Positions 23,743-24,864 of a stretch of DNA of 64,000 nt are shown one piece after another. Below the pieces are notes generated by a model that saw only the letters and a list, made by a program, of their open reading frames with translations, did not search any database and was not told the origin of the DNA. The DNA is taken from the NCBI RefSeq assembly GCF_000188695.1, contig NW_004754931.1, positions 1,907,140-1,971,139 on the forward strand, read 5' to 3'. The stretch's first letter is position 1; each line of letters starts with the position of its first letter. The position numbers and the translations under genes are program-made. The DNA is from Salpingoeca rosetta. Lineage: Eukaryota > Opisthokonta > Choanoflagellata > Craspedida > Salpingoecidae.

Positions 23743-24597
23743 CACATCAACACACACATCACATCAACACACACATCACACACACATCACACACAGGTCC
23801 CCAGGGTCCTGCTGGTGCCGATGCCGAGGATGGTTTGCCCGGCCCTGGTGGCGAGAACGGTGACGCCGGTGACCGCGGCTTCAAGGGCTTCCGTGGCGAC
23901 CCTGGCCCACGCGGCGCAGATGCTGGCGATGGTGCACGCGGCTCAGACGGCCACCACGGTCTCAAGGGCGACAAGGGCAACACTGGTCCCACTGGTGTGA
24001 AGGGTCAGCCCGGTACGGACGGTGTCGATGGCGCTGATGGCAGCCCAGGTGCCAAGGGCCAACCAGGCTTTGATGGTACGGATGGCCTCAAGGGCATGCG
24101 CGGTTACGTTGGTGACAGCATCCCGGGACCTAGTGGTGCCATTGGTGACAAGGGCCAGCGCGGCGACGGCGGTGACGGCGGCATCAAGGGTAACGTTGGT
24201 CTTCCTGGCTCTGCCGAGGCCATCCGCGCCTTTGAGACAGACGCCGATTGGCGCGCGTTCAAGACCGAGTACGACGCTGCGGTTGCCAGCTTTGACAACT
24301 ACGACGGCTCTTGCGACGATGTCATGGATGACTTTGAGACTGCCCGCCAGGACGCCCGCGATCTCTACGACACCATGGAGGAGTTCTTCAGCAACATTGA
24401 CCGTGCAGCGAGCGACGCGCAAACCGATATCCAAAACGCCCTCAACCAGTACGAGGCAGAGTGCGAAGAGCTTCGCGTCGAGACATACGCAACAGTTCAG
24501 GTTCGTCTTTGTGCATTTTGCGTCTGTGTGTATGTGCGCGCGCGCGTGTGCGCGTGTGCGCCTGTGTGTCTTTGGCGTTGCGTGTGTGTGTGTATGT

Positions 24598-24639
<42 letters not shown>

Positions 24640-24864
24640 ATGCAAGCATGTGTGGGGGGGGGGTGCGGCCATTTTCCATTTTGCCATTCTCCAGTCTTGT
24701 CTCTGTCTCTTCGCTTTTGTGCCTTTCCTCCTCGCCATTTCTTCCTCACGCCCAATCTCCCTTCCTTCCTCCCCTCTCCCTTCTCTCTCCACCGCCATCT
24801 TCTGCAGGAAATGATTTCGGCCCTGCGCAACTGGGTCAACTACTACACAGACGGCAGCGACTAA
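16059..24864 (+). CDS. Long collagen with novel C-terminal domain, 1117 aa
   Basis: Nineteen exons: 16059-16125, 16403-16585, 16856-17044, 17437-17661, 18020-18118, 18413-18610, 18859-18904, 19149-19330, 19618-19932, 20214-20293, 20593-20872, 21281-21531, 21815-21851, 22053-22142, 22444-22559, 23010-23055, 23317-23505, 23797-24500 and 24808-24864. A signal peptide (residues 1-20) is followed almost at once by about 980 residues of Gly-X-Y, with a handful of breaks such as [22 protein letters not shown] and GDSIPG. KGFRG, KGQRG and GEDGL triplets recur, with many GTD/GAD. The helix has no cysteine. Residues 1003-1117 are non-collagenous, acidic, predicted helical by eye, with two cysteines, ending [13 protein letters not shown]. 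This resembles neither the fibrillar C-propeptide nor the collagen IV NC1. Length and near-continuity match fibril-forming collagens; a matrix or theca role is inferred. Codon use matches the neighbours, so recent transfer is unlikely. Confidence 0.93.
16740..16807. repeat. (ACACA)n pentamer satellite before a collagen acceptor
   Basis: About thirteen tandem five-base units pass into a CA run that ends at the acceptor AG at 16854-16855. Confidence 0.95.
19366..19470. repeat. TTG/TTTAAG minisatellite in collagen intron 8
   Basis: (TTG)n interrupted by GTTTAAG, passing into CTGTTG and GCGTTT units. The intron runs from 19331 to 19617. The same TTTAAG-(TTG)n unit recurs in two other introns of this gene. 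Confidence 0.9.
20884..21132. repeat. TTTAAG(TTG)n minisatellite in collagen intron 11
   Basis: About 250 bases of TTG runs separated by GTTTAAGTTG, GTCTCTG and GTTTCAG. Near the 3' side a longer unit, roughly GTCTCTGTTGTTGTTTAAG, is repeated in tandem. Confidence 0.92.
21653..21694. repeat. (GGTT)n tetranucleotide repeat, collagen intron 12
   Basis: About ten GGTT units in the intron between 21531 and 21815. Confidence 0.95.
22596..22760. repeat. TTTAAG(TTG)n minisatellite in collagen intron 15
   Basis: TTG runs are separated by GTTTAAG six or seven times, ending in CTGTTG units. This is the third intron of the collagen gene with this unit. Confidence 0.92.

Follow-up and report, generated by a model that had tools for sequence, protein, structure and literature searches.

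A long Gly-X-Y collagen of the choanoflagellate Salpingoeca rosetta with an acidic, probably helical C-terminal domain

The collagen gene and its Gly-X-Y rod

The DNA analysed here (hereafter the window) is a stretch of 64,000 nucleotides from the choanoflagellate Salpingoeca rosetta (contig NW_004754931.1, positions 1,907,140 to 1,971,139), which harbours a collagen gene on the forward strand at window positions 16059–24864. The gene model, predicted from the DNA sequence alone, comprises 19 exons encoding 1117 amino acids followed by one stop codon; it was obtained with a splice-aware script rewarding Gly-X-Y triplets, with the last intron, misplaced by the script, set by hand. All 18 introns are of the GT-AG type and the spliced model contains no internal stop. 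Exon 1 (16059–16125) encodes a 20-residue start resembling a signal peptide by eye, followed by EL and one base of the codon that comes after. The Gly-X-Y domain is encoded by exons 2–17 and the beginning of exon 18 (16403–24209), and the 16 introns within this region (16403–23505) are all located at a Gly codon, 12 in phase 1, three in phase 0 and one in phase 2.

The C-terminal non-collagenous part (hereafter the tail) begins in the last part of exon 18 (24210–24500), which encodes residues 1003–1099 with predicted short helices, a turn at NYDGS, Cys1037 and a predicted long helix with Cys1087. After a phase 0 GT-AG intron of 307 bases (24501–24807), exon 19 (24808–24864) adds residues 1100–1117 and the stop, and a candidate polyadenylation signal, AATAAA, follows 686 bases 3' of the stop (25550–25555), all on the forward strand. 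An earlier first-pass annotation had placed the tail at 24211–24864; the end of this range stands, but the range takes in the last intron, and the tail DNA is 24210–24500 plus 24808–24864.

The protein is a collagen triple-helix protein by its extended Gly-X-Y repeats (Pfam PF01391), with an E of 4e-17 on the exon-18 frame alone and many further PF01391 matches along the gene. Its Gly-X-Y domain runs from residue 24 to Gly1002, i.e. 979 residues with 322 complete triplets, in six runs of 112, 129, 40, 10, 21 and 10 triplets separated by five small interruptions, so that the earlier count of about 326 near-perfect triplets was a fair one. The collagen has no N-propeptide, as had also been proposed, since the signal-peptide-like start is followed by ELK and then directly by Gly-X-Y, with an in-frame stop upstream at 16005.

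Compared with the animal fibrillar collagens, which carry a COLFI domain, the window collagen shares the long Gly-X-Y rod and the C-terminal non-collagenous domain, but has no COLFI match, an interrupted helix, no N-propeptide and no 45- or 54-bp exon. Neither COLFI nor a single uninterrupted Gly-X-Y domain of ~1000 residues, both fibrillar features, was found in it. The first-pass annotation had seen a match to fibril-formers in both length and continuity; the length is indeed close to the 1014 residues of the fibrillar COL domain (PMC4450265; this and the other papers are cited from excerpts), while the five interruptions speak against the continuity. Regarding exon sizes, none of the 19 has a length of 45 bp, and none is 54 bp long or a multiple thereof, though one exon of 99 bp and three multiples of 45 (90, 225 and 315 bp) would be possible fusions of 45/54-bp units, and invertebrate fibrillar genes also deviate from this pattern (PMC4450265). 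No KGH cross-link site is present in the window collagen. A test for the D-period showed no peak at 234 (z -0.58; maximum reached by 72/200 shuffles), but it says nothing on the window collagen, because the positive control, rat COL1A2 residues 7–867, also failed (202/300). Altogether, the comparison with fibril-formers is weak. As a side observation, when the Gly-X-Y region was compared with PDB sequences, the second-ranking match was a 780-residue chain named ‘spindlefibril/axialfibril’ (PDB 8zxl, 9ius), on which a literature search returned nothing relevant among the matches listed.

The C-terminal domain

The tail comprises residues 1003–1117 and directly abuts the last Gly-X-Y on its C-terminal side. 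Its 115 residues are strongly acidic (pI 4.05, net charge about -21.5) and contain two cysteines, Cys1037 and Cys1087, located 35 and 85 residues after the last Gly and thus 50 apart, in agreement with the first description of this domain. Its codon choice, scored against the Gly-X-Y exons, reaches 0.151, while the best of 1000 random synonymous versions reaches only -0.016, which is consistent with the tail being coding; GC3 is higher in the tail (0.75) than in the Gly-X-Y exons (0.51).

In an hmmscan of residues 1003–1117 against Pfam up to E 10, 17 families were matched, none of them being COLFI, C4 (the NC1 domain of collagen IV and spongin) or C1q (found in collagens VIII and X), which agrees with the proposal that the tail differs from the COLFI and C4 ends of animal collagens. 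A PDB sequence search with the tail matched no solved structure and two protein searches gave no matches.

The proposed helical nature of the tail is supported by both its sequence pattern and structure prediction. Over tail residues 14–63, the a/d positions of a heptad are hydrophobic in 15/15 cases versus 7/35 elsewhere (positions named after looking), and over residues 14–66 the best-of-seven-frames a/d contrast was reached by none of 20000 shuffles. Cys1037 occupies an ‘a’ position, through which the heptad continues unbroken, and tail residues 34–112 form a stretch of 79 residues without Gly or Pro. For the exon-18 part (a 102-residue construct, single sequence), AlphaFold2 predicted helices at 4–14, 17–34 and 40–101 in construct numbering, i.e. 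two short helices, a turn and one long helix. The tail is therefore coiled-coil-like, with a predicted heptad-patterned helix adjoining Gly-X-Y, clean over tail residues 14–66 only.

Other collagen-like genes of the genome

Across the assembly (54.4 Mb, 49 contigs, denoted C1, C3 and so on), Pfam Collagen matched at 78 places, and the neighbourhoods of six collagen-like genes were read, i.e. the window gene, one gene on C1, three on C21 and a short stub on C23. Collagen matches on C24, C31, C5 and C7 were judged by eye to be simple repeats, and one at C3:101609–101722, where several overlapping frames match, was left out of the six. A helical-looking segment directly follows the collagen block in five of the six genes.

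The gene on C1 (C1:1237216–1248721, reverse strand, loci L033 and L034) is a giant with two VWA domains (E 4e-26 and 4e-27, Pfam) between Gly-X-Y blocks; it was read unspliced, with its status as a single gene assumed from exon order and frame-by-frame reading. It recalls collagen VI, but its VWA domains lie inside the rod. Two helical-looking modules are found in this protein, one internal (~114 residues, between Gly-X-Y blocks) and one C-terminal (C1:1237216–1237554, reverse strand), with Gly/Pro-free stretches of 79 and 78 residues, respectively. The C-terminal module, ~112 residues long, directly follows the last Gly-X-Y and carries cysteines at +34 and +84, i.e. with the same 50-residue spacing as the window tail (+35 and +85), as well as a turn containing Gly or Pro immediately ahead of the first matching Cys, as in the window tail. 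It differs by two extra cysteines and by the two VWA domains encoded in the same gene. That both window cysteines come to lie no more than one residue from one of the four cysteines of the C1 module has a chance of ~0.010, as computed post hoc. A heptad in the C-terminal module was matched by 21/2000 shuffles over residues 34–70 and by 476/2000 over 34–110. The internal module showed no significant a/d heptad (1349/2000 for residues 34–62, 1427/2000 for 34–112), while its large hydrophobic residues show helical periodicity (0/2000 shuffles).

Homology between the window tail and the C1 modules is not claimed. The local alignment score of the tail with the C-terminal module was 54 versus a shuffle mean of 32.9 (reached by 8/1000), yet the reversed sequence scored 61, and the Cys-anchored gapless score of -57 was average when compared with the mean of -60 over all offsets. 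MAFFT yielded no sensible register, and the score against the internal module was reached by 304/1000 shuffles. Therefore, only Cys spacing and layout agree. The two C1 modules may be related to each other, given that their scores were reached by 6/1000 shuffles locally and 0/1000 globally, with 40 for the reversed sequence versus 51. It is a tentative and rather doubtful idea that the window tail and both C1 modules form one fast-evolving family of helical collagen-nucleation domains (short helix, turn, Cys, 50-residue spacing, Cys), which would have worked in long secreted collagens earlier than, or alongside, COLFI and C4 and, inside a chain, would restart triple-helix folding between blocks.

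A stretch of 1446 bases with 99.2% identity to the 3' end of the C1 collagen gene (L043:3089–4533, about C1:1228589–1230033, versus L033:1114–2552) is located about 7.5 kb away from it; in this stretch the helical module is 99% identical and without Gly-X-Y in its open frame. The copy either arose by a recent segmental duplication or is an artefact of the assembly.

The three genes on C21 (711–720 kb, 744–753 kb and 755–765 kb; L035, L036 and L037) encode proteins in which Gly-X-Y is followed within 0–3 residues by a Pro-free stretch of 791–816 residues, rich in Ser, Ala and charged residues and taken as helical from composition alone. A hydrophobic segment resembling a membrane span and then a tail come thereafter, so that these proteins look membrane-anchored. 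By eye, L035 and L037 are nearly identical in their Gly-X-Y parts. The stub on C23 (C23:568009–570246, forward strand, L044) is a short Gly-X-Y part in an open frame of 746 codons running into non-collagen sequence, with only a sub-cut-off Collagen match in Pfam.

Neither COLFI nor C4 was found in the main frames of the three proteins on C21 and the one on C23 (Pfam, E <= 0.01) or in four C1 frames (Pfam, E <= 0.001). A six-frame search of the whole assembly for both domains was also empty, but since control genomes were equally empty, their genome-wide absence is weak evidence. Elsewhere in the window, positions 38001–40000 have a GC content of 0.308, the remaining 2-kb blocks ranging from 0.52 to 0.66.

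Proposed trimerisation and rival explanations

We consider it likely that the window gene encodes a secreted rod collagen, probably homotrimeric, in which the 115-residue C-terminal domain serves as an alpha-helical trimerisation and register module. This reading draws on the sequence layout, the mid-domain heptad, the predicted succession of helix, turn and long helix, and the lack of a match to known collagen C-terminal profiles. The C1 C-terminal module with its equal Cys spacing and the Pro-free stretches of the C21 proteins are further points in its favour. With no domain N-terminal to the rod, the obvious candidate for setting the register of the window collagen is its tail. Trimerisation domains sit at the C-terminal end in most types of collagen, where they nucleate a zipper-like folding that proceeds towards the N-terminus (PMC5126661). 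Three chains would associate in the endoplasmic reticulum via the long helix (about tail residues 35–112) as a parallel coiled coil, with the N-terminal helical part of ~30 residues either packing back on the long helix, giving a six-helix bundle as in the V-domain of the streptococcal collagen-like protein Scl2, or continuing in line. Inter-chain disulfides may lock the chains through Cys1037, in the core, and Cys1087, whose core position would require a skip of one residue in the heptad between both cysteines (50 = 7x7+1, a spacing shared by the module at the C1 C-terminus). The 979-residue triple helix would then zip from C to N, followed by secretion without removal of an N-propeptide. Proline hydroxylation of the rod is possible, as 9/10 exon matches to 2OG-Fe(II) oxygenases in the genome were over the cut-off.

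A helical trimeriser next to a collagen helix is an already known kind, occurring in collectins and in bacterial and phage collagens. The Scl2 V-domain, which was not among the matches found for the window tail, sits N-terminal to its collagen, whereas the window tail is C-terminal; surfactant protein D (SP-D) differs in having a short collagen region and, after a short neck, a C-type lectin domain. The suggestion that a helical module would align and trimerise chains in a new manner finds no support in this form, alpha-helical trimerisers being documented for SP-D (PMC5126661), phage-encoded Escherichia coli collagens (PMC3368898) and the Scl2 V-domain (PMC6736723). The SP-D coiled coil is a classical alpha-helical one and is ranked among the structural classes of collagen trimerisers, together with C4, C1q, multiplexin and COLFI (PMC5126661). 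In the phage-encoded collagens, PCoil forms a trimeric alpha-helical coiled coil beside Gly-X-Y and is Ala/Ser-rich, like the C21 stalks of S. rosetta, but is N-terminal of the collagen, with a separate PfC trimerising the C-terminal end (PMC3368898). The V-domain of Scl2 is likewise a helical domain of a collagen-like protein, its monomer consisting of two antiparallel helices within a six-helix bundle (PMC6736723); for the window tail, the single-chain AlphaFold2 model predicts a helix-turn-helix.

Several observations weigh against a trimerising tail. The AlphaFold2 confidence is moderate (mean pLDDT 69.4, pTM 0.42, single sequence), and a coiled-coil pattern, proposed for residues 1003–1117 as a whole, is clean in the middle only, since tail residues 62–113 alone (470/2000) and 1–31 alone (739/2000) are no better than shuffles. 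Cys1087 is one residue off the clean-heptad register. The trimer motif R/K-h-x-x-h-E is absent from the tail, while the C1 C-terminal module has it once, and aromatic- and Ala-rich cores can also yield antiparallel or higher-order bundles. Moreover, coiled coils are blunt-ended and by themselves give no one-residue stagger (PMC5126661). The tail might instead be a monomeric or dimeric helical bundle binding matrix or a ligand, with the chains associating via Gly-X-Y itself or a partner protein; we regard this as unlikely.

Less likely still is that the tail represents the removable C-propeptide of a true fibril-former, which would trimerise the chains and be cleaved off by a protease, whereupon the rods would form striated fibrils. 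The rod length near that of the fibrillar COL domain (PMC4450265) would fit, and so strongly acidic a tail could hinder lateral packing, but the five interruptions and the lack of a KGH site speak against it; 45- and 54-bp exons are also lacking, though fused units are possible, as is a D-period signal, in a test whose control failed. We also considered a gene-model artefact, in which the true transcript would be spliced to different 3' exons, with a known domain forming its end further downstream. The 3' exon structure is a sequence-based prediction, and the last donor, GTTCGT, is unlike those of the other introns (GTACGN, GTGCGT, GTGAGT and the like); yet the tail shares one open frame with the Gly-X-Y exon, its codon choice suits the gene, AATAAA follows at 25550 and, as the weaker argument given the empty control genomes, the six-frame searches found no COLFI or C4. 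An artefact is thus very improbable.

Evolutionary implications

In the choanoflagellate Monosiga brevicollis, Gly-X-Y and COLFI are encoded on separate proteins (PMC2852846; PMC5120351). Excerpts of other reports describe Gly-X-Y repeats without complete collagens in Monosiga and Salpingoeca (PMC5395295), the occurrence of fibrillar collagens in choanoflagellates (PMC4450265) and a filasterean with a true collagen IV (PMC5560861). In a literature search of freely available papers, no helical C-terminal domain of a choanoflagellate collagen was described in the titles and abstract openings among the matches listed. New here are the helical-looking ends with equal Cys spacing in two long collagens of one genome, together with the stalks of the membrane collagens. 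The window tail is real and well delimited, and the overall interpretation put forward in the first-pass annotation is partly supported.

The origin of the animal matrix poses the question by what means long collagens were kept in register before COLFI or C4 joined Gly-X-Y. The collagen of the window, from a single-celled choanoflagellate, combines one long rod with a C-terminal helical domain as a possible alternative register device, and the register step is testable on one small domain. Judging from sequence and predicted fold, chain trimerisation, disulfide formation and the direction of folding may proceed as outlined above, and the three chains are probably tied together by a helical, coiled-coil-like end, in place of the folded end-pieces of animal collagens.
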